Source of the DNA: Bacteroidota bacterium
GTDB lineage: Bacteria > Bacteroidota > Bacteroidia > B-17B0 > Aurantibacillaceae
Direction of reading: 5' to 3'
Assembly: GCA_030692515.1 (NCBI GenBank)
Contig: JAUXZS010000030.1
Span: forward strand, 1-64,000
DNA: 64,000 nt
A program made the translations under genes and the position numbers. This document shows positions 48,017 through 58,760 of this stretch, piece after piece. A model generated the notes under the pieces. The model saw nothing but the letters and a program-made list of their open reading frames with translations. It was not told where the DNA came from and searched no databases. Each line of letters begins with the position of its first letter. Position 1 is the stretch's first letter.

Positions 48017-49264
48017 TTATGGCTGCAAATTTACATTAAAACCAACTGATTTCAAATCCTCCCAAAATAAGGGGTATGATTTAGTAACTACTTCTGGATT
48101 TTCGATGGCGATTTGCTTGTAAAGCAATGCTAGTGGTGCAAAACTCATAGCCATACGGTGATCGTTGTAAGTATTTATTGGGTTTCTTGTTTCTTGTTTC
48201 TTATTTCTTGTTTCATGGATAAGGATGGAACTGTCTGTTGTTTCAACAATTGCTCCCAATTTTTCTAATTCTGTTTTTAAAGCAATTATTCTATCGCTTT
48301 CTTTTAATTTCAATGTTTTTAAACCTGTTAATTTTGCTTTAATACCCAAACCAAAACAAGTTATTGCAACCGTTTGGGCAATATCCGGACAGTTTGTAAA
48401 ATCGTACTCAAAATAATTAGTTGTTGCAGAATTTTTTGTCAGACAAATTTCTTCGTTTTTGAATTGCGCTAACACACCCAATTCTTTATAAATCGTAGGT
48501 AAAACAGCATCTGCTTGTGATGATTTGTTTTTTAAACCTGTTAATTTTATTTCTGCATCTTTACTAAGAGCAACAATGCTAAACCAATATGAGGCAGATG
48601 ACCAATCTGATTCAATATTATAAATGTTAGATTTTAGAGGTGAAATTTTAGATTTCTGAACAGATATTAAATTATTGGATTTTTTAATTATAATTCCAAA
48701 TTCAATTAAAATATCAATTGTCATTTGAATATATGGCCAAGAAACAATTTCGTTTTTTAATCTAAGTTCTAATCCAATTTCAAAGCTTGGCGCTATTAAT
48801 AATAATGCAGAAATAAATTGACTACTAATACTTCCGTCAATTTCAATTTTTCCGCCTTTTAGTTTTTTCCCAGTTATTTTCAAGGGAGGAAAATTTTCTT
48901 TTTCCAAAAAAGTAATTTCGGCACCTAAAGATTTTAAAGCGTCAACTAATTCACCAATTGGTCTTTCCTTCATTCGGTCAGAACCAGTTAATATCCACTC
49001 TCCTTCTTTGGTTGCTAATAGTGCAGTTAAGAAACGCATGTCGGTTCCTGCATGGTGAATATCTATTGTTCCTTTATTTTTATTTTTTATTTCGTGTAAT
49101 GCCTTTTTTAAAAGCAGAGTGTCTTCTGATGTAGAACTATTTTCAAAATTTAAATCCAAATCAAGCACATCATTTAATATCAGCATACGATTATGAATGC
49201 TTTTTGAGCCAGATAGCTTTATAGTTGAATTTATAAATTGTTCAGTTGAAGAAAATAATAGCAT
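48017..49264 (-). CDS. aroA: 3-phosphoshikimate 1-carboxyvinyltransferase (EPSP synthase)
   Basis: 415 residues. Seen: LSGSKSIHNRMLILN, GTDMRFLTALLA, GSDRMKERPIGELVDALKSL, LKESDRIIALKTELEKLGA and TYNDHRMAMSFAPLAL. It joins shikimate-3-phosphate with phosphoenolpyruvate on the chorismate pathway. Between the beta strand SSILI and TYNDHR the protein carries HETRNKKQETRNP, encoded by a heptanucleotide repeat (see repeat at 48183). The start overlaps aroB by one base and the stop touches the tatC start. Confidence 0.96.
   Translation of the reverse strand: MLLFSSTEQFINSTIKLSGSKSIHNRMLILNDVLDLDLNFENSSTSEDTLLLKKALHEIKNKNKGTIDIHHAGTDMRFLTALLATKEGEWILTGSDRMKERPIGELVDALKSLGAEITFLEKENFPPLKITGKKLKGGKIEIDGSISSQFISALLLIAPSFEIGLELRLKNEIVSWPYIQMTIDILIEFGIIIKKSNNLISVQKSKISPLKSNIYNIESDWSSASYWFSIVALSKDAEIKLTGLKNKSSQADAVLPTIYKELGVLAQFKNEEICLTKNSATTNYFEYDFTNCPDIAQTVAITCFGLGIKAKLTGLKTLKLKESDRIIALKTELEKLGAIVETTDSSILIHETRNKKQETRNPINTYNDHRMAMSFAPLALLYKQIAIENPEVVTKSYPLFWEDLKSVGFNVNLQP
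48183..48214 (-). repeat. Heptanucleotide tandem repeat inside aroA
   Basis: On the coding strand, GAAACAA-type units, about four and a half copies, one with T for C. Encodes the HETRNKKQETRN insert. The unit length (7) is not a multiple of three, so any copy-number change would shift the frame. Confidence 0.9.
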
Positions 49265-50325
49265 TATACAGAAGTGTTATAAAAGTCTATAGCTTTTTTT
49301 AGTTGGGTTTCGGTTACTTCTATGTCATATTTGCAAGCCCCAATTTTATTTAATAACGAAAACTGGAATTTGTTTTTTAATGTTTTTTTATCGTTTCTCA
49401 TCAATTCTAGAAGTGAATTAAAATTGATAGGCTTTATTTTTTTTAAGTCAAAAACTTCTTTAAAAACTAAAGTTATTTCCGATAATTCGGTTTTAGAAAG
49501 TAATTTTTTCTGGAAAGCCAAATGACTTTCGATTAACATGCCAATTACAATGGCTTCTCCATGTAATAATTCTTCTTTTGTTCCTAACAACAATGATTCA
49601 ACAGCATGACCAATAGTGTGACCAAAATTCAAAATTTTCCGAATGCCTTTGTCGAAAGGGTCTTTTAAAACTATTTTGTTTTTTAAAGCAACACTTTTTG
49701 ATAGTATGAGCTCGGTATTGTTTTCTGGATTTGAAGTTTTTAATTCAATCCAGAATTTTTTATCTGCGATTAAGGCTATTTTATAAATTTCGGCTAAACC
49801 ATTTTCGTAATGACGTTTTGGTAAGGTTTCCAAAAAATGCGGATTAATAAATACAGCTTTTGGTTGCGTAAATGTGCCAATAGAATTTTTTAATCCAGCA
49901 AAATCTATTCCGGTTTTACCGCCAACACTGGCATCAGCCATCGAAAGAAGTGTAGTGGGGATATTAATAAAATCAATTCCACGTTTATAGGTTGAAGCAC
50001 AAAACCCGCCTAAATCGCTTACAACGCCGCCACCCAAATTAATCACCAACGAATTTTTATCGGCTTTATTTTCAATTAAAGTATGCCAAATGTGTGCGCT
50101 AATCTCAATGGACTTACTTGCCTCGCCGCTCTCTATTTCAATTATATGTGCATCGCGAAGTTTTACGCAATTTGTAATTAATTGTGGTAAACAATATTGA
50201 AATGTATTTTCATCGCAAATAACGAAGTAAGAAGAGTAGTTATTGTTTTTTAAAAATGCAGAAATAGTTTTAAAAACTTGCATACCAATTTCTACATTAT
50301 AGCCATTTGATTTTATTGAAAGCAT
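49264..50325 (-). CDS. aroB: 3-dehydroquinate synthase
   Basis: 353 residues from the ATG at 50325, 8 bp after the DAHP synthase stop; a TTG two codons earlier is possible. INLGGGVVSDLGGFCASTYK is the NAD/metal block, with DASVGGKTGIDF, ENGLAEIYKIALI and NFGHTIGHAVESLL following. It makes 3-dehydroquinate from DAHP. Its stop overlaps the aroA start by one base. Confidence 0.96.
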   Translation of the reverse strand: MLSIKSNGYNVEIGMQVFKTISAFLKNNNYSSYFVICDENTFQYCLPQLITNCVKLRDAHIIEIESGEASKSIEISAHIWHTLIENKADKNSLVINLGGGVVSDLGGFCASTYKRGIDFINIPTTLLSMADASVGGKTGIDFAGLKNSIGTFTQPKAVFINPHFLETLPKRHYENGLAEIYKIALIADKKFWIELKTSNPENNTELILSKSVALKNKIVLKDPFDKGIRKILNFGHTIGHAVESLLLGTKEELLHGEAIVIGMLIESHLAFQKKLLSKTELSEITLVFKEVFDLKKIKPINFNSLLELMRNDKKTLKNKFQFSLLNKIGACKYDIEVTETQLKKAIDFYNTSV

Positions 50326-50333
50326 AACCAAAG

Positions 50334-51344
50334 TTAATTGAAAATTAATGATTGATAAAGTAATTTTATTTTTTCTATAAGTTGGCTAGATTCCATAAAA
50401 TTTAAGGTCTGTTGCCCGTCAGACAAAGCCTCTTCAGGTTTTTCGTGCACCTCATAAATTATTCCGTTAGCGCCACTTAATAAAGCCGACAATGCTAATT
50501 TAGGAACAAACGACCTTATGCCAACACCATGAGACGGGTCGGCAATTACAGGTAAATGGGTTTTTTCTTTTAATACCTGAATTGCGTTAATATCAAAAGT
50601 GTTTCGGTAAGCTGTTTCAAATGTTCTGATACCTCGTTCACATAAAATTAATTTTTCGTTGCCCTTACTAAAAACGTATTCGGCTGATGAAAGTAATTCT
50701 TCAATCGTACCGCTAACGCCTCTTTTTAGGAGAACTGGTTTATCAATTTCACCAAGAGCATCTAGCAAATTAAAATTCTGCGAATTTCTGGCTCCCACCT
50801 GAAATACATCTACAAATGGTAACATCTCTTCTATTTGTGAAACTTGCATTACTTCGGTAATTATTTTTATGTTATGTGGTTTACATTTTTCATACATCAT
50901 TTTTAAACCATCAATTCCTAAACCTCTAAATGCATAGGGAGAACTTCTTGGTTTAAAAACGCCACCTCTTATAATTTTAATGTTTTGTTCTAATAAATGC
51001 GCTACAATTTTATCTATTTGTTCTTCGCCTTCAACAGAGCAGGGCCCGGCCATAATAGAAGGATTATCTTTGCCAATAAAAACATTATTACCTAAATCAA
51101 TGCTGGTATCTTTTACTTTCCATTTTTTACTTACTAATTTATAACTATCAGAAACTACATGAACATCTTTAATCCCTGGCAAATTTCCAAAATCTCGAAT
51201 ATCTATTTCGTTTTTACCAATGCAAACAAGGTATTTTTCGAGTTGAGTATTAACTTCATTTATCGAAAATTTATTTTCGACTAGTTTATTAAATAAGTTT
51301 TCTTTTTGACCTTCTGTAATAGTATTATTTAATTGAATTATCAT
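50334..51344 (-). CDS. aroF: DAHP synthase (3-deoxy-7-phosphoheptulonate synthase), type I-beta with N-terminal ferredoxin-like domain
   Basis: 336 residues. Residues 1-70 form the ferredoxin-like regulatory domain seen in Thermotoga-type enzymes, where Tyr and Phe bind. The barrel has IMAGPCSVEGEEQ, GGVFKPRSSPYAFRG, LLKRGVSGTIEELL and PVIADPSHGVG in order. It makes the first shikimate-pathway compound from phosphoenolpyruvate and erythrose-4-phosphate. Its ATG overlaps the trpA stop (ATGA), so the first common step is tied to the trp operon. Confidence 0.95.
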   Translation of the reverse strand: MIIQLNNTITEGQKENLFNKLVENKFSINEVNTQLEKYLVCIGKNEIDIRDFGNLPGIKDVHVVSDSYKLVSKKWKVKDTSIDLGNNVFIGKDNPSIMAGPCSVEGEEQIDKIVAHLLEQNIKIIRGGVFKPRSSPYAFRGLGIDGLKMMYEKCKPHNIKIITEVMQVSQIEEMLPFVDVFQVGARNSQNFNLLDALGEIDKPVLLKRGVSGTIEELLSSAEYVFSKGNEKLILCERGIRTFETAYRNTFDINAIQVLKEKTHLPVIADPSHGVGIRSFVPKLALSALLSGANGIIYEVHEKPEEALSDGQQTLNFMESSQLIEKIKLLYQSLIFN

Positions 51345-52132
51345 GATGCAATTTTTTTATTTTTTATAGAATTAATGAATTGGGGTATATCTTTTTTTAG
51401 GTTGTTTGAATTTTCTACCACTTGAATAAATGCAGACCCTATTATGGCACCGTTACTGATGCTGCAAGCCTTATTATAATGTTTAGCATTTTTAATTCCG
51501 AAACCAATTAGTAATGGAATTTTTAATCCAAGTGATTTTAAATCTTTTATTTTTTCAGATAAGTCCAATTTGGTTTCGATTGTGTTGCCAGTAGTAGAAT
51601 TTGATGAAACCATATAAACAAATCCCGAACTATGGTTTGCTAAATCCAAAGCTCTATTGTGGTAAGTTGATGGACTAATTAGGAAAATAAAATCGAGTTG
51701 GTATTTTTTAATTAAAACCTCATGATCTTTTTTATATTCTAGCAAAGGAAGGTCTGGAATTATTAAACCATCTACACCAGATTCACAACAAGTTTGATAA
51801 AAATCTTCGAGGCCAAATTTTAAAATAGAATTTAAATATCCCATTAATACAATTGGTTTTGAAATGAGAGACCTAACTTCTTTTATTTGCTTTAAGAGCA
51901 AAAACAAAGTCATTCCGTTATCTAATGCAATATTGCTACTTTGTTGAATTATAGGCCCGTCAGCAAGTGGATCGGAAAAAGGAATACCAATTTCTATAAT
52001 GTCACAATCAGAATTTTCTAACAGTGGAATTATCTCAAGTAAGCTCTCCTTTTTAGGAAAACCTGCGGTAATAAAAACAGACAAGTTTTGATCTGGTTTA
52101 TTTAAAAATAAGTGCTGTAATTTTGTTTTCAT
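51341..52132 (-). CDS. trpA: Tryptophan synthase alpha subunit
   Basis: 263 residues. CDIIEIGIPFSDPLADGPII carries the catalytic Glu and Asp, then VLMGYLNSILKFG, GLIIPDLPLLE and LLIGFGIKNAKHY. It cleaves indole-3-glycerol phosphate to indole, channelled to TrpB. The gene is 5 bp after trpB and overlaps DAHP synthase by 4 bp. Confidence 0.96.
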   Translation of the reverse strand: MKTKLQHLFLNKPDQNLSVFITAGFPKKESLLEIIPLLENSDCDIIEIGIPFSDPLADGPIIQQSSNIALDNGMTLFLLLKQIKEVRSLISKPIVLMGYLNSILKFGLEDFYQTCCESGVDGLIIPDLPLLEYKKDHEVLIKKYQLDFIFLISPSTYHNRALDLANHSSGFVYMVSSNSTTGNTIETKLDLSEKIKDLKSLGLKIPLLIGFGIKNAKHYNKACSISNGAIIGSAFIQVVENSNNLKKDIPQFINSIKNKKIAS

Positions 52133-52137
52133 TTTTT

Positions 52138-53331
52138 TTAGTTATAATATTTTAAATAAGTATCTAAATCTTTATCGCCTCTCCCAGATAAATTAATAAT
52201 TACAATTTCCTCTGGCTTAAATTTTATTTTATTCAAAGCCGCAAATGCATGAGCACTTTCCAGTGCTGGAATTATCCCTTCTAATTTCATTAATTCAAAT
52301 GCTGCTTTTAAAGCTTCCTCATCTGTTGCCGATAAATAGGATGCGAGTTCGGTTTCATTTAAATAAGCGTGTAATGGACCAATTCCAGGATAATCTAGCC
52401 CTGCTGAAATACTGTAGGGCTCAGTTATTTGTCCATCATCGTTTTGCATTAAAAATGTTTTACTGCCGTGAATAATTCCAACTGAACCAACTTGCAAAGT
52501 AGAGGCAGTATGTTGAGTGTGTTTTCCTTTCCCTTCGGCTTCAATTCCTATTAGTTTAACTTTTGAATTGCCAATAAAATCACAAAAAGCACCCGCAGCA
52601 TTACTTCCACCACCAATACAAGCTAAAATATAATCAGGATTTTCTTTTCCCTCTAACTCATATAATTGTTTTTTTATTTCTTTACTTATTATTGATTGAA
52701 AACGCGTTACCAAGTCTGGATAAGGATGCGGACCAACAACCGAACCTATAATGTAGTATGAATCGGTGTTATTAATCCAATAACGAATTGCTTCGTTGGT
52801 GGCATCTTTTAAAGTTTTTGTGCCACTGCATGCAGGAATTATTTTTGCTCCTAACATTTTTATTCGTGAAACGTTGGGGGCCTGACGTTCAATATCTACT
52901 TCGCCCATAAAAATGGTACAGTCTAAACCTAAAAGCGCACAGGCAGTTGCGGTTGCAACGCCATGCTGTCCGGCACCTGTTTCGGCAATAATTTTTTGTT
53001 TACCTAATTTTTTTGCGAGAAGCGCTTGCCCTAATGCGTTATTTATTTTGTGAGAACCAGTGTGATTAAGATCTTCTCGTTTTAAATAAATTTTAGCATT
53101 ATATTTTTTGGATAAATTTTTAGCAAAATAAAGTGGAGTTGGGCGACCAACATAATCATGTAACAGCAAGTTTAATTGTTTTTTAAAATCTTCATCTTCT
53201 GTAATTTTTAAGTAATTATCAGTTAGTTCTTTTAAGTTTTTGTAAAGAAGTTCGGGGATATAGGCTCCGCCAAAATCACCATAATACCCATTTTCTGTTA
53301 TGTTATATCCTTTATTTAATTGTGTTTGCAT
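52138..53331 (-). CDS. trpB: Tryptophan synthase beta subunit
   Basis: 397 residues. [14 protein letters not shown] start; the pyridoxal phosphate lysine is in [54 protein letters not shown] and [13 protein letters not shown] complete the set. It condenses indole with serine. Spacing to trpF is 3 bp and to trpA 5 bp. Confidence 0.97.
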
Positions 53332-53334
53332 AGT

Positions 53335-53946
53335 TTATTTTTTTAATAATTGTTGTATTTTTTCTAAGTCTTTTAATCCGGGGTTAATTTCAAATTTTGA
53401 GTTAACGTCTAGTCCAATAAGGTTTTTTATAGATAGATTTTTAAGTTCAGAAACATTATCTAGCGAAACTCCTCCACTAATAAAAAAGGGTTTGTTTATT
53501 ACAATATCACTTAATAAATGCCAGTTAAAAGCTTGTCCGCTACCACCGTAATTTGGAGTAGATGTGTCGAATAAAAAATAATCACACACGTCTGAATAGT
53601 TCTGAATTTTTAAAATTGAACTTTTATCTTTTATCGATATGGTTTTTATGATCTTTACACTTGACAATAAATCTCGACAATAATCAATGCTTTCTTCTCC
53701 GTGTAATTGAACAAAGTCTAAATCGTAATGCGCAATACTATTAAAAACTGAATAGATAGGTTCATTTACAAAAACACCAACTTTTTTAATGTGTTTGGGA
53801 ATTTGTCTTGCTTCGTCAAACGAGAGGGCATTATTAAAATAGCGTGGCGAATTTTTATAAAAAATAAAGCCTAATAAATTAATTTTCATTTGAGAAATTG
53901 CAAAAATATTATCTCGATTGTTTAAACCGCACACTTTAATTTGCAT
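53335..53946 (-). CDS. trpF: Phosphoribosylanthranilate isomerase
   Basis: 203 residues. KVCGLNNRDNI with the catalytic Cys, GFIFYKNSPRY, VGVFVNEPIYS, VQLHGEES, LFDTSTPNYGGSGQAFNW with the catalytic Asp and FFISGGVSLDNV are all in family order. It overlaps trpC by 11 bp and precedes trpB by 3 bp. Confidence 0.96.
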   Translation of the reverse strand: MQIKVCGLNNRDNIFAISQMKINLLGFIFYKNSPRYFNNALSFDEARQIPKHIKKVGVFVNEPIYSVFNSIAHYDLDFVQLHGEESIDYCRDLLSSVKIIKTISIKDKSSILKIQNYSDVCDYFLFDTSTPNYGGSGQAFNWHLLSDIVINKPFFISGGVSLDNVSELKNLSIKNLIGLDVNSKFEINPGLKDLEKIQQLLKK

Positions 53947-54754
53947 AGCTTAAATTTTTTTTAATTGTTTCGTTTTGAAGAGAAGTAATAAATTCTTTAC
54001 AGGCTAAAGAAGGTTCTGGATGTTTCATAAAGTGGGAGCCAATTAAAAAACCGGAATACCCAATTTTCTTTAATTTCAAGATGTTTTCAATTGTTTCTAT
54101 TCCGCTCTCGGCAACTTTGGTTTTTTCTTTGGGAAGTTTATCAGCCAAATTAAAACTTGTATTAAGATCAATTTTTAAAGTTTTAAGATTGCGGTTATTA
54201 ATACCAATAATGTTTGTTTTTGACGAGGTTTTTTCAATTTCTGTTTCGTCGTGAATTTCTAAGAGTACTTCTAAACCTAAGCCTGCAGCTAAATTGGTAA
54301 AAGAGTTAATTTCAGTTTTTGTTAAACAAGCCGCAATTAATAAAATTGCATCAGCGCCTATTGATTTGGCTTCAATAATTTGGTACTCATCAATAATAAA
54401 TTCTTTTCTGAGAATGGGGCAAAAATTAAATTTCCGAGCAATACGTAAATCTTCATTACATCCTCCAAAAAATGTTTTGTCGGTTAGCACAGATATGGCG
54501 CTTGCACCTGCCTGCATATAACCAATAGAAGTTTTTTCAACGTTAAGGTATTTATTAATAATTCCTTTCGAAGGAGATTGTTTTTTAATTTCAGCAATTA
54601 TTCCGCTCTTGTCTTTTCTCAATAGATATTTGTTTAAAGAAACGGTAGATGTATTAAAGTAGAGTGATTGTTCTAACAATTTAGTTGGGTACAATTTTTT
54701 TGTTTCCTCAACTTCCAATTTTTTGGTTGCAATTATTTTTTCTAATGTATTCAT
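53936..54754 (-). CDS. trpC: Indole-3-glycerol phosphate synthase
   Basis: 272 residues. GIIAEIKKQSPSKGII, AISVLTDKTFFGG, ILRKEFIIDEYQI, ILLIAACLT, IIGINNRNLKTLKID and VAESGIETIEN give the full active-site barrel. It is a single-function protein, not fused to trpF. Spacing to trpD is 3 bp. Confidence 0.96.
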   Translation of the reverse strand: MNTLEKIIATKKLEVEETKKLYPTKLLEQSLYFNTSTVSLNKYLLRKDKSGIIAEIKKQSPSKGIINKYLNVEKTSIGYMQAGASAISVLTDKTFFGGCNEDLRIARKFNFCPILRKEFIIDEYQIIEAKSIGADAILLIAACLTKTEINSFTNLAAGLGLEVLLEIHDETEIEKTSSKTNIIGINNRNLKTLKIDLNTSFNLADKLPKEKTKVAESGIETIENILKLKKIGYSGFLIGSHFMKHPEPSLACKEFITSLQNETIKKNLSYAN

Positions 54755-54757
54755 GGT

Positions 54758-55735
54758 TTATTGGTTAATGATGTTTTTAAATAGGTTATAGGCTTTTTTT
54801 GATTCAATAGCTTCTTTTGATTTTGCTATACATTCGGTTAGTGTTAAATTGGAGTAATAACAATTCATTGCTAAAGCAGTGTTTGCTAGCACAACTTCTT
54901 GCTGTGCATTTGTACCTTTATTTTGCAAAACGTTTACGAATATTTCTGCAGCGCTTTCAATTGTATTGCCTGCGTGCAAATCTTCAGTCTGTAATTTTTT
55001 AAACCCAAAATCTGCATTCGATATGAGGGTTTCTTTAGTATTTGAGTAAACTTTTGTTTCACTGGTTAAACTTATTTCGTCGTATCCATCTAAAGAATGC
55101 ACAATAGTATAGTGGTGTTTGGATTCTTGCAGCATATAATTATACATCCTGGCAATTTTACTGTTAAACGTTCCTATATATCTATACTTTGGGTTTGCAG
55201 GGTTTACCATAGGCCCCAACAGATTAAAAAAAGTTGTTATTCCTAAACTTTTACGAATGGGGGAAGCAATTTTTAAGCTTGGATGAAAAAGTGGTGCGTG
55301 AATAAAACAAATATTATGTTTTTCGAGGTCGTAATTTAATTCGGATGGATTACTTTTAAATTGATGACCAAAATATTTTAAAATATCTGATGAACCTGAA
55401 ACACTTGACGCGCCAAAATTTCCATGTTTTGCAACGGGCACTCCGGCAGATGCTAATATGATCGCTGATAATGTTGAAATATTGAAGGTTTTTTTTTTGT
55501 CACCTCCGGTTCCGCAAACATCTATACACGGTTTATGCAAATCTATCTTAATAGCAATTTCTAATAACGCGTTTTTAAAGCCATTTAATTCTTGCAACGA
55601 AATATGGCGTGTTTGAAAAATCCCAATTAGGATACTAATTTGGTAGTCGTTTAGTTTTTGAGAGGCTAAGTCTAGCATTAAGGTATAAGCTTCCCGCTCG
55701 GACAATATATGTCCAGTACAAAGTTTTTGAAACAT
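54758..55735 (-). CDS. trpD: Anthranilate phosphoribosyltransferase
   Basis: 325 residues. DVCGTGGDKKKTFNISTLSA holds the GTGGD phosphoribosyl-diphosphate loop and KHGNFGASSVSGSSDIL the anthranilate site; FNLLGPMVNPANPKYR is the second family block. It lies 48 bp after trpG, the widest gap in the array. Confidence 0.96.
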   Translation of the reverse strand: MFQKLCTGHILSEREAYTLMLDLASQKLNDYQISILIGIFQTRHISLQELNGFKNALLEIAIKIDLHKPCIDVCGTGGDKKKTFNISTLSAIILASAGVPVAKHGNFGASSVSGSSDILKYFGHQFKSNPSELNYDLEKHNICFIHAPLFHPSLKIASPIRKSLGITTFFNLLGPMVNPANPKYRYIGTFNSKIARMYNYMLQESKHHYTIVHSLDGYDEISLTSETKVYSNTKETLISNADFGFKKLQTEDLHAGNTIESAAEIFVNVLQNKGTNAQQEVVLANTALAMNCYYSNLTLTECIAKSKEAIESKKAYNLFKNIINQ

Positions 55736-55783
55736 TGATTCTAATTTTTAAAAATTAATAATGGATTGAGTATGTAGTTTTAA

Positions 55784-56350
55784 TTAGGCGCTGAGCCAAT
55801 TATGAATTATGGTTTCGCCGTATTCTGATAAAATAGATTCTGGATGAAATTGAACCCCTCGAACGTCATACGTTTTATGTTTAGCCCCCATGATATTATT
55901 TTTTTCGTCGGTAGCAGTTACAATTAAGTTCTGAGGTAAATTTTCATTTTTTATTACCCATGAATGGTATCTTCCTACATTAAATGTTTTTGGGCAGCCA
56001 TTAAAAATTACATCCTCATTAATTAAATTAACTGGAGTAGCAATTCCATGATATACAGTTTCAAGGTTTTCAAGTGTTGCGCCAAATGTTTCTCCTATTG
56101 CCTGAAGGCCTAAACAAACTCCAAAAATCGATTTTGTTTTGTGATAATGTTTTAAAAGGTCGGGCATAATTCCAGAATCTTTTGGTAAACCAGGCCCAGG
56201 GGATAATAATATCTTTGAATAGTTGTTTACGGCATCTAGTGAAATTTTATCATTGCGAATAACATCAAAAGGTATATCGCTCACTTTTTCTACTAGGTGA
56301 ACTAAGTTGTAAGTAAAGCTATCGTAATTATCAAGCACTAATAGTTTCAT
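55784..56350 (-). CDS. trpG: Anthranilate synthase glutamine amidotransferase component
   Basis: 188 residues, class I amidotransferase. LLVLDNYDSFTYNLVHLVEK, SPGPGLPKDSG, FGVCLGLQAIGETFG with the nucleophile Cys, and VQFHPESIL with the His-Glu pair. It feeds ammonia to TrpE. Overlaps trpE by 20 bp. It could also serve folate synthesis (pabA), since no other candidate is in view. Confidence 0.95.
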   Translation of the reverse strand: MKLLVLDNYDSFTYNLVHLVEKVSDIPFDVIRNDKISLDAVNNYSKILLSPGPGLPKDSGIMPDLLKHYHKTKSIFGVCLGLQAIGETFGATLENLETVYHGIATPVNLINEDVIFNGCPKTFNVGRYHSWVIKNENLPQNLIVTATDEKNNIMGAKHKTYDVRGVQFHPESILSEYGETIIHNWLSA

Positions 56351-57773
56351 GGCTGTATGAAGGTATGGATTTATTAATTTTTCGAGCTTCTTTAATTGCT
56401 TTTTTTAGGGCGCTTATTTTATTGTATATCTCTAAATTTTCAGATTCAGGGTTACTTGCATTTACAATTCCTGCCCCTGCTTGGTAATAAAGTACATTAT
56501 CTTTACTTAAAAATGTTCGAATCATAATGGCGTGATTTAATTCATTTTTGTTTGAAATAAATCCAATCGATCCACCATAATAACCGCGAGATGTAGGTTC
56601 ATACTTATTAATTAGCTCTAATGCTCTATATTTAGGGGCGCCAGATAAAGTTCCTGCAGGAGATGAGTTTGCCAATACGTCATAGAGTTGTACATTCGGT
56701 TTTAGTTCTCCCTCAATTTTACTTACTAGATGGATAACATGAGAATAGAGTTGTATTTGTTTTATATATTTTGGAGCCACATTTGAACAATATTTACTCA
56801 GGTCGTTTCTTGCAAGATCTACTAACATCATGTGTTCTGCATTTTCTTTTTTATCTTCTACTAATTTTTTAGCATTTGCTATATCTTCAAGATCGTTGCC
56901 AGTTCTTTTATAAGTTCCTGCAATTGGATTTATTTGTGCTTTATTGTTTTTAATAATTAATTGTGCTTCAGGCGAGGAACCTATTAATCTAAATTTACCT
57001 GTATCAAAATAAAACAAATAGGGCGAAGGATTAATGTTTTTAAGTGCGCGGTATAAATTAAAATCGTCGCCAATATACGATTGAGAAAATTGGCGAGATA
57101 ATACAATTTGAAAAACATCACCTTTTTGGCAATGATCCTTTCCTTTATTGGCTAATTCAATAAAATCCTGATCTGTTAGGTTAGAAGATTCTTTGCCAAT
57201 AGCGTTAAAATTAAATTCTGTTATTTGTTCCGTCTTTATTTTTTCATCCAAATCCTCTAATTGAGCTCTTGCAATTTCTTCATTAAATGCATGAGAAATA
57301 AGGTGCAAATTATTTGTAGTATGGTTAAATACTAATATCAATGAGTATAAATGATAAATAATTTCCGGAATCTGTTGGTTATTATCTTTTTGTTTAAGGT
57401 TGATATCTTCAAAATATTCTACGGCATTAAAGCTTGAATAGCCAAAAATACCTCCGGTACAAAATTTAAATTCCAGTTCATCAAAAATAAATTGCTCTTT
57501 AAAGTTCATCAATTCTTTGATGATAGTTTTGTTTGAAGGAGGAAAAGCAGTATTTGTGGATTTGGAATTGACTGTGATTTTTAAATTTTGATTAAAAAGT
57601 TCGAAGGTGGCAATTGGATTAAAGCATAAATAAGAATAATGATCCTGTTTATTGTTATAATCAGAGCTTTCGAGTAAAAGCGGTTGCTGGTAATAATCTC
57701 TAAGTGCCATAAAAATTCCTGTCGGAGTTTTTGTATCGGCGAGTATTGTTTTTGTATGTGTTTTTAATTTCAT
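56331..57773 (-). CDS. trpE: Anthranilate synthase component I
   Basis: 480 residues. The feedback-binding LLES motif is present (residues 33-36, QPLLLESSDYNN), so tryptophan should inhibit the enzyme directly. The chorismate core has INPIAGTYKRTGND, LVDLARNDLSKYC, SSPAGTLSGAPKYRALELI and GGSIGFI. It makes anthranilate from chorismate with TrpG. The ATG is 17 nt after the T run of the attenuator terminator. Confidence 0.97.
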   Translation of the reverse strand: MKLKTHTKTILADTKTPTGIFMALRDYYQQPLLLESSDYNNKQDHYSYLCFNPIATFELFNQNLKITVNSKSTNTAFPPSNKTIIKELMNFKEQFIFDELEFKFCTGGIFGYSSFNAVEYFEDINLKQKDNNQQIPEIIYHLYSLILVFNHTTNNLHLISHAFNEEIARAQLEDLDEKIKTEQITEFNFNAIGKESSNLTDQDFIELANKGKDHCQKGDVFQIVLSRQFSQSYIGDDFNLYRALKNINPSPYLFYFDTGKFRLIGSSPEAQLIIKNNKAQINPIAGTYKRTGNDLEDIANAKKLVEDKKENAEHMMLVDLARNDLSKYCSNVAPKYIKQIQLYSHVIHLVSKIEGELKPNVQLYDVLANSSPAGTLSGAPKYRALELINKYEPTSRGYYGGSIGFISNKNELNHAIMIRTFLSKDNVLYYQAGAGIVNASNPESENLEIYNKISALKKAIKEARKINKSIPSYSHETISA

Positions 57774-57790
57774 TGTTGTTACGTTTAAAA

Positions 57791-57827
57791 AATAAAAAAG
57801 GCCCGCTGTTATTGAACAGCGGGCCTT
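57791..57827 (-). terminator. Attenuator terminator of the trp operon
   Basis: On the coding strand AAGGCCCGCTGTT / AACAGCGGGCCTT, 13 perfect pairs around a CAAT loop, followed by TTTTTTATT. This is by far the most GC-rich hairpin of the region and lies between the trp leader ORF and trpE. Confidence 0.93.
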
Positions 57828-57853
57828 GAAGTATGCCTTAGGTAAATATAAAT

Positions 57854-57916
57854 TTAGCTGTTCACAATTTTATTTGCAAACCACCACCACATTTTATTTA
57901 CGTTATTATTTTTCAT
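57854..57916 (-). CDS. trpL: trp operon leader peptide with three consecutive Trp codons
   Basis: A 20-residue ORF, MKNNNVNKMWWWFANKIVNS, with codons TGG TGG TGG at positions 10-12. It starts 9 nt after a TAGGTTTG -7 box and ends 26 nt before the attenuator terminator. Its last bases, TGAACAGC, overlap the stop region and are complementary to GCTGTTCA in the terminator's 5' arm and loop. The expected mechanism: with low charged tRNA-Trp the ribosome waits on the Trp codons and leaves TGAACAGC free to block the terminator; otherwise it runs to the stop, covers this segment, and transcription ends. Confidence 0.92.
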   Translation of the reverse strand: MKNNNVNKMWWWFANKIVNS

Positions 57917-57925
57917 TTCCGTGTA

Positions 57926-57933
57926 CAAACCTA
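57926..57933 (-). promoter_or_regulatory. Probable -7 element of the trp operon promoter
   Basis: TAGGTTTG on the coding strand, exact TAnnTTTG match, 9 nt before the trp leader ATG. No good TTTG is found 18-20 bp further upstream, where the sequence is T-rich. Confidence 0.6.
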
Positions 57934-58088
57934 AACAAAGTTTTTTATAAAAAAAAATTATTTTGTTAAATTGAAAATTATCTGCCTTGTTTTGTCGCTG
58001 AAAGACTCACTGTTATTGGTTTAATGTTTGATTAATTTATTTTCGTTATGAGAATTCAAAATTAAGGCTATTAATTGTAATTTAGAAT

Positions 58089-58760
58089 ATGCAAAAAAAT
58101 TTCATTTACCTTTTTTTAATGACACTAATGTTTTCAAATTTCAAAGAAAAAAAACCGCAAACGATAAATTATTTACCACTGGGTGATTCTTATACTATAT
58201 GTACTGGCGCAACAGAAAGTGATTCCTGGCCAGTTTTACTTACAAAACATTTAAATGAAAATAAAATTAATTGTAAATTATTAGACAATCCTGCGCGCAA
58301 TGGTTTTAGTACCCAAGATTTAATAGACAATGAGTTGCCTTTACTTAAAAAGCTGAAACCAAATTTTGTTACATTATTGATTGGTGTGAATGATTGGGTT
58401 AGGGGAGTGACAAAAGAAAACTTCACAAAAAACTTAATTTATATTTTGGATGAGGTTCAAAAAAACATTCCTGATAAGAAAAAAGTCATTTTAATTACTA
58501 TTCCAGATTTTGGAGTAACACCTCAAGGCAAAAATTATGGTAACGGAAGAGATATTCAAAAAGGACTAGCTGAGTTTAATGCCGTTATTAGTAACGAAGC
58601 AAAAAAGAGAGAATTACCATTAGTCGATATTTTCGGGTTATCTCAAAAAATGAAAGATGACGCTACTTTGGTAGCTATTGATGGTCTTCATCCATCAGCT
58701 AAGGAGTATGCCTTGTGGGAAAAGTTAATTTTAAAAGAGACACTAATAATTTTAAAATAA
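58089..58760 (+). CDS. SGNH/GDSL hydrolase
   Basis: 223 residues. An N-terminal hydrophobic segment (FIYLFLMTLMFS) suggests export. Block I is PLGDSYTICTG with Ser34, block III LLIGVNDWVRG (usual GxND) and block V DGLHPSAKEY with Asp and His. It should cleave an ester, such as an acylated sugar or lysophospholipid. Single gene, followed by a strong terminator; divergent from trp. Confidence 0.92.
   Translation: MQKNFIYLFLMTLMFSNFKEKKPQTINYLPLGDSYTICTGATESDSWPVLLTKHLNENKINCKLLDNPARNGFSTQDLIDNELPLLKKLKPNFVTLLIGVNDWVRGVTKENFTKNLIYILDEVQKNIPDKKKVILITIPDFGVTPQGKNYGNGRDIQKGLAEFNAVISNEAKKRELPLVDIFGLSQKMKDDATLVAIDGLHPSAKEYALWEKLILKETLIILK

Follow-up and report, generated by a model that had tools for sequence, protein, structure and literature searches.

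The window analysed here, a 64,000-nt stretch of DNA from a Bacteroidota bacterium, carries a tryptophan operon on its minus strand. From their spacing and common strand, the genes from trpE through aroB are inferred to form one transcript. The trpE product matched Anth_synt_I_N above the cut-off. Its best NCBIfam model, trpE_most, scored 419 bits, below that model's cut-off of 517.7, but for the naming of trpE this is offset by the other trp genes downstream. The best NCBIfam models of trpG and trpF were likewise below their curated cut-offs; trpG passed the subfamily model trpG_papA, and trpB passed the trpB model itself. Upstream of the trpE leader, a divergent gene (58089-58760) lies on the plus strand. 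The features of the leader and the operon are as follows.

57926..57933, minus strand: TAGGTTTG, a -7 box of the Bacteroidota primary sigma factor type (sequence match to TAnnTTTG)
57921, minus strand: putative transcription start placed from the box position, giving a 5-nt 5' UTR (57921-57917, CGGAA)
57916-57854, minus strand: leader ORF MKNNNVNKMWWWFANKIVNS, 20 codons in 63 bases, ATG to TAA, stop codon at 57856-57854
57895..57901, minus strand: GTAAATA, upstream of the Trp codons, forming the 5' strand of outer helix P1 (fold, partner swapping)
57881..57889, minus strand: TGG TGG TGG, three Trp codons, the proposed stall site
57874..57886, minus strand: segment 1, TGGTGGTTTGCAA, the second and third Trp codons plus the codons that follow (fold, alignment)
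57855..57867, minus strand: segment 2, TTGTGAACAGCTA, the end of the ORF, predicted to pair with segment 1 or 3 (fold, alignment)
57864-57857, minus strand: TGAACAGC, the antiterminator strand within segment 2, candidate partner of segment 3 (sequence, alignment)
57842..57848, minus strand: 3' strand of P1, TATTTAC, 3' of the stop codon (fold, partner swapping)
57813..57820, minus strand: core of segment 3, GCTGTTCA, from the terminator 5' arm into the first two bases of the loop (fold, alignment)
57827-57798, minus strand: intrinsic terminator 3:4, 13 bp, loop CAAT, followed by a T-rich tail (terminator scan, alignment)
56331..57773, minus strand: trpE, the gene that opens the controlled operon (Anth_synt_I_N, NCBIfam)
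49264..56350, minus strand: trpG, trpD, trpC, trpF, trpB, trpA, a DAHP synthase gene and aroB (best NCBIfam models)

A sequence-only reading of the window had described the Trp-codon ORF, the -7 box before it and the 13-bp terminator, and all three were confirmed at these coordinates. The leader region held this one terminator-like site with 13 pairs, against an average of 0.2 when the region was shuffled, and 26 nt separate the ORF from the hairpin. The distance of 17 nt to trpE given in that reading holds when counted from 57791 within the T-rich tail, but 24 nt lie between the end of the stem and the trpE ATG (57773). Similarly, the reported complementarity of TGAACAGC with GCTGTTCA is exact over 8 bases, but the last two bases of GCTGTTCA lie in the terminator loop and not in its 5' arm. 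A sigma-70 promoter scan of 57700-58150 found no promoter.

Subsequently, the leader was compared with those of related genomes. It was found in all 11 trpE-bearing genomes among the 36 same-genus genomes searched (G001-G036, 5 of which are less than 90% complete); tryptophan synthesis is thus patchy within the genus. The alignment contained 21 leaders: that of the window, 11 from the same genus (one per trpE-bearing genome), two from the same family and seven others. These were picked by eye, partly via an AACAGC/GCTGTT motif, and therefore the conservation of helix 2:3 in this set is partly selected. Duplicates (L002, L003, L004 and L006, equal to L083, L085, L084 and L091, respectively) and relatives with a different leader arrangement, such as L096, L098, L103, L144, L164 and L165, were omitted. 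The conserved Trp leader ORFs that had been proposed as a check were indeed present, the ORF being open with two or three Trp codons in 21/21 aligned leaders, and the box, ORF, Trp codons and terminator kept their order and spacing in the relatives.

In the minimum-energy fold of the window leader, the Trp-codon region and the following codons pair with TTGTGAACAGCTA, that is, helix 1:2 is formed. Over the 21 leaders, this helix comprised 14 pairs, 6 of which changed on both sides, and 89.0% of the cells were paired; helix 3:4 comprised 10 pairs with such changes at 6 and 96.7% paired; helix 2:3 comprised 9 pairs with such changes at 2 and 89.2% paired. When 1:2 and 3:4 were taken jointly, the observed covariation score and number of doubly changed pairs were reached in 0/500 shuffles and the number of pair types in 18/500, figures that, like every shuffle-based test here, are inflated by kinship among the leaders. 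Sliding the partner by 1-3 columns lowered the paired cells of these two helices from 92.2% to 31.7-52.6%, and RNAalifold recovered both without an input structure. In 1:2, non-standard cells occurred in some leaders at 9/14 pairs, most often at columns 50-53 (9/21) and 45-58 (8/21). In L092, GUUUGCAA/UUGUGAAC of the window are replaced in 1:2 by GUUUAUAA/UUAUAAAC; the first bases of the terminator loop are also changed, and 2:3 therefore persists. Since the 3' strand of P1 slides between sequences, P1 was tested by partner swapping and not by pair counts on MAFFT columns. In this test, 0/5000 permutations equalled the own partners for each of P1, 1:2 and 3:4.

Helix 2:3 is the weakest-supported of the helices. 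Its percentage of paired cells was reached in 3/500 shuffles and its covariation score in 1/500; in partner swapping, a fraction of 0.018 of the permutations was as good, a weaker result than for the other helices. Compensating changes, which had been suggested as a check, were seen at 2/9 pairs, but 108/500 shuffles had as many. In L088 and L089, 2:3 can form only with a bulge. Taken together, the ORF, Trp codons and terminator are read from the sequence, and comparison shows the conservation of P1, 1:2, 2:3 and 3:4. A further conserved stretch, 57839-57832 (AAGGCATA in the window), lies between P1 and the terminator and also occurs in L083-L086, L090 and L091. No pairing partner of this stretch was seen, and it is perhaps a pause site.

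We also folded the 21 leaders in different ribosome states, which the sequence-only reading had proposed as a check, assuming a ribosome footprint of 15 nt on either side of the P site. With the terminator 3' arm still absent, the free nascent RNA gave a probability above 0.5 for 1:2 in 18/21 leaders. When a ribosome masked the Trp codons, 2:3 exceeded 0.5 in 19/21, and with a ribosome at the stop codon neither helix did so (0/21 each). The predicted nascent RNA thus switches between 1:2 and 2:3, but the full-length RNA at equilibrium formed the terminator in all of the ribosome states (mean probability of 3:4, 1.00). Given this preference of the complete RNA, the choice must be made kinetically, while transcription is under way.

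These results suggest that the trp operon is very probably controlled by ribosome-mediated transcription attenuation, and that its leader has the canonical layout of four segments. The predicted fold of 1:2, its recovery by RNAalifold, its 6/14 doubly changed pairs and the match of the same-genus leader L086 to the Rfam Trp_leader model (see below) argue for four segments. The earlier proposal of a Trp-codon attenuator with TGAACAGC as the antiterminator is supported, with the leader in 11/11 trpE-bearing genomes of the genus and 2:3 paired at the level given above. When tryptophan is plentiful, the ribosome would pass TGG TGG TGG, reach the stop codon and hide segment 2; the 3:4 terminator would then form and transcription would end ahead of trpE. 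When charged tRNA-Trp is scarce, the ribosome would halt on the Trp codons, occupying segment 1 together with the P1 5' strand, and the freed segment 2 would pair with segment 3 before segment 4 is synthesised, so that trpEGDCFBA and the aro genes would be transcribed. On a leader that carries no ribosome, P1 and 1:2 would sequester segment 2 and the terminator would form, a default off state. The stalling, the kinetic competition and the dependence on Trp are inferred here, as is the transcription start.

The sequence-only reading had instead held that the leader lacks a four-segment layout and is a compact two-state device, in which segment 2 competes with the terminator alone and no protective 1:2 exists. 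We consider this very unlikely. It would account for the support of 2:3 and 3:4, and since segment 2 is within the ORF, occlusion by the ribosome alone could work the switch. However, the predicted fold of the window leader contains 1:2, this helix covaries across the 21 leaders, as the exchange in L092 illustrates, and without 1:2 the ribosome-free nascent RNA could form the antiterminator, whereas folding gives 1:2 in most leaders. The four-segment attenuator corrects the idea of a reduced design, and shows a textbook device retained far from Proteobacteria.

In the E. coli Trp_leader (RF00513), four segments are present with the Trp codons in segment 1, and segment 2 is located after the leader stop codon. 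The window leader likewise has four predicted segments with Trp codons in segment 1, and differs in that segment 2 is placed within the ORF, in the extra outer helix P1 and in the inferred 5-nt 5' UTR. Two of these departures from the E. coli case can be tested, namely the location of segment 2 in the ORF and the shortness of the predicted 5' UTR. The window scored 21.5 bits against RF00513, whose gathering score is 41. Among 16 related loci scanned, only L086 passed (42.4), the other matching loci being below 41, and none of 295 genomes of the class was above the cut-off.

At gathering score, an Rfam scan of the whole window gave no match. Against RF01692 (Bacteroid-trp), the window scored 27 bits (E 0.54; gathering score 49), which is not significant alone, and the best scores among the 16 related loci, 45.0 and 44.7, were also under 49. 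The window nevertheless aligned over the whole model (1-131), with the AUG, Trp codons and outer helix in register; it has the anatomy of that family (Trp ORF, outer helix, terminator and downstream trp gene), and both are found upstream of trp genes in Bacteroidota. Since the window is below both Rfam thresholds, we filed it in neither RF01692 nor RF00513. A short leader ORF with consecutive Trp codons precedes the first trp gene, a predicted protector hairpin 1:2 has Trp codons in segment 1, the predicted antiterminator 2:3 is mutually exclusive with 3:4, and the terminator lies between the ORF and the first gene. As judged from these features, the leader is classed by mechanism among the ribosome-mediated four-segment trp attenuators.

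With strict search filters, RF01692 was above the cut-off in 10/295 genomes of the class and at only 6/61 trpE leaders. This suggests that the model covers only a minority of the leaders in the class, and a broader model is therefore warranted. A search model built from the window's subfamily (R1) recovered the leader in 29/29 loci found by RF01692 at E <= 1e-3, 27 of which were above the RF01692 cut-off; the R1 E-values at these loci were 2.6e-6 to 0.067, with the score coming partly from the terminator. Among the extra matches of R1, 10/20 regions had no Trp codons (L224, L227-L229, L231, L233 and L240-L243) and were set aside as plain terminators. In L112, L121, L128 and similar RF01692-type leaders, an antiterminator candidate, GTCGTGA, matched by eye the terminator loop and 3' arm (TCACGAC). 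As the 5' arm is not matched, this pairing is possibly a different way of breaking the hairpin. Among the matches listed in our search of open-access full texts, no Bacteroidota-wide account of trp attenuators was found; a comparative paper by Lopatovskaya and others (2010) may bear on this subject.

Ribosome-mediated trp attenuation had been noted as best known from Proteobacteria; the novelty is limited, since earlier reports concern Bacteroidota. RF01692 is an Rfam family from Weinberg 2010 (PMC2864571, Table 1). According to a passage of PMC6414381, the Bacteroid-trp element is found ahead of the Flavobacterium psychrophilum trp operon and resembles the trp leader of E. coli. Passages of PMC9723704 report clues to leader-peptide attenuation before amino-acid operons of this organism, and structured 5' elements upstream of hisG, pheA and other genes. 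F. psychrophilum resembles the present case in being a member of Bacteroidota for which leader-peptide attenuation of amino-acid operons was proposed; it differs in belonging to another lineage of the phylum, and the passages on its leaders give no four-segment comparison. The trpE leader is real and well conserved, and its mechanism is of a known kind, which it extends.

In the even sample of 295 class genomes, trpE was found at E <= 1e-60 in 91 genomes at 92 places. Before counting, L145 and L161 (less than 120 nt upstream) and L211 (trpE start not found) were dropped, leaving 89 upstream regions. The strict criteria, an ORF of <=45 codons with TGGTGG and then a terminator, were satisfied by 61/89 regions, compared with 0/1780 dinucleotide shuffles and 0/89 reverse complements; the relaxed criteria gave 69/89, compared with 0/890 shuffles. 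L152 and L098 passed the strict test and failed the relaxed one, which demands ATG. For L181 and L140, both counted in the 61, the script printed another ORF than the evident leader, which can be seen further along in the same line. Among repeated codons in these ORFs, TGG came first (69/89) and AAT second (25/89), a codon-specific signal. Vibrio-type loci, as the positive control, gave 29/32, after L063, L064, L074 and L075, where the trpE match starts too late, had been removed from 36 loci. The negative controls gave 0/8 for pabB-like loci and 1/53 for window ORFs of >=150 aa, the one being trpE itself. A general test for 2:3 complementarity reached the 5% shuffle level in 30/61 class leaders, compared with 62/305 for foreign arms and 11/29 for Vibrio-type leaders; it is a blunt test.

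The remaining 28 regions failed the strict criteria, and 26 of them were inspected by reading. They included W-x-W leaders, such as L157, L162 and L169, and sound leaders whose terminators are less regular (L097, L179 and L185). At L205 and L208, trpE is directly behind the end of another gene, and an RF01692 leader lies further upstream in the genome; the same holds for L116 and L207. Reading of the upstream sequences of L156, L159, L170, L189 and L200 revealed no recognisable leader. In L100, L192 and L198, the trpE leaders are related to one another and carry one Trp codon each (L100: MKLWQKYYSPKPLLIKGMG), followed by a terminator.

Two other explanations of the locus were considered. The locus might be a plain terminator beside a conserved small protein gene whose Trp-rich peptide acts in trans, with no switch; the trp leader peptide of Sinorhizobium is reported, in the abstract of PMC7298713, to be active in trans, and the peptides of the 21 aligned leaders are alike. 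Outside the Trp codons, however, peptide length and sequence vary over the class, and the stop codon moves (before segment 2 in L096 and L103, to its start in L091) while the RNA pairings persist, which makes this reading highly improbable. The idea that the hairpin terminates another transcript and the TGG run arose by chance can draw on the divergent gene upstream, but that gene is transcribed away from the terminator, the leader elements keep their order and spacing in relatives, and no shuffle reproduced them, so that it deserves hardly any credence. As for an alternative regulator of the operon attenuated in this way, TrpR had no match in the window's genome and was above the cut-off in 2/198 genomes of the phylum.

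The consensus of the Bacteroidota box, TAnnTTTG, is placed at -12 to -5 in the relevant passage of PMC9723704; therefore a gap of g bases between box and AUG implies a 5' UTR of g - 4. Measured to the farthest in-frame ATG, the box lay no more than 60 nt away in 50/61 class leaders, and 11/61 had no such box. The gap was <14, implying a 5' UTR of <10 nt, in 38/61, and exactly 4, implying a leaderless mRNA with a 5' UTR of zero, in 9/61. As a control, 5/46 window ORFs of >=200 aa had a gap <14, a count that uses first ATGs and includes operon-internal genes. In published data, approximately 3.7% of 5' UTRs are <10 nt in B. thetaiotaomicron and 5.5% of mRNAs are leaderless in F. psychrophilum (PMC9723704), and a passage on the latter organism describes Shine-Dalgarno sequences as absent in the phylum (PMC9723704).

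The short 5' UTRs of the trp leaders in the class are a sequence-based estimate. It is conceivable, and we offer it tentatively, that these mRNAs start approximately at the AUG and use leaderless-type initiation, that P1 locks unloaded transcripts, and that this amounts to a distinct, Shine-Dalgarno-free attenuation. Under such initiation, the ribosome would load once the RNA emerges, and otherwise P1 would close over the Trp codons. If true, this would be a variant of trp attenuation largely overlooked by the Rfam models. These inferred 5' UTRs of <10 nt are mildly new, as is the His leader that the window's genome carries ahead of hisG, described below.

Leaders were also found where the trp genes are split, the genes at these loci being named via NCBIfam matches to the first 150 codons. 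Trp leaders with terminators precede trpD at L225, L230, L232 and L239, all four of the Trp-Trp-Trp type, and trpB at L235-L237. Three genomes with trpD leaders (G568, G548 and G155) also have trpE leaders that pass the strict test (L177, L183 and L176); in the fourth, G194, the trpE leader is of the W-x-W type (L162).

The genome of the window (G000) lacked matches to both ilvD (PF00920) and prephenate dehydratase (PF00800), each of which was matched in 14/14 control genomes. It is probably dependent on external branched-chain amino acids and phenylalanine, yet trp and hisG are kept. Before hisG in this genome, a His-rich leader ORF, VKATMHIHHHHNLHQVGCVCIAF, is followed by a terminator.

2268-2197 (ORF) and 2170-2146 (terminator), minus strand: hisG leader L244 (G000:C25:17792-17670; sequence)

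Within this ORF, AGGTAGGCTG pairs with the 5' arm of the terminator at -12.4 kcal/mol. The hisG leader is probably a second amino-acid attenuator in which segment 2 is inside the ORF.
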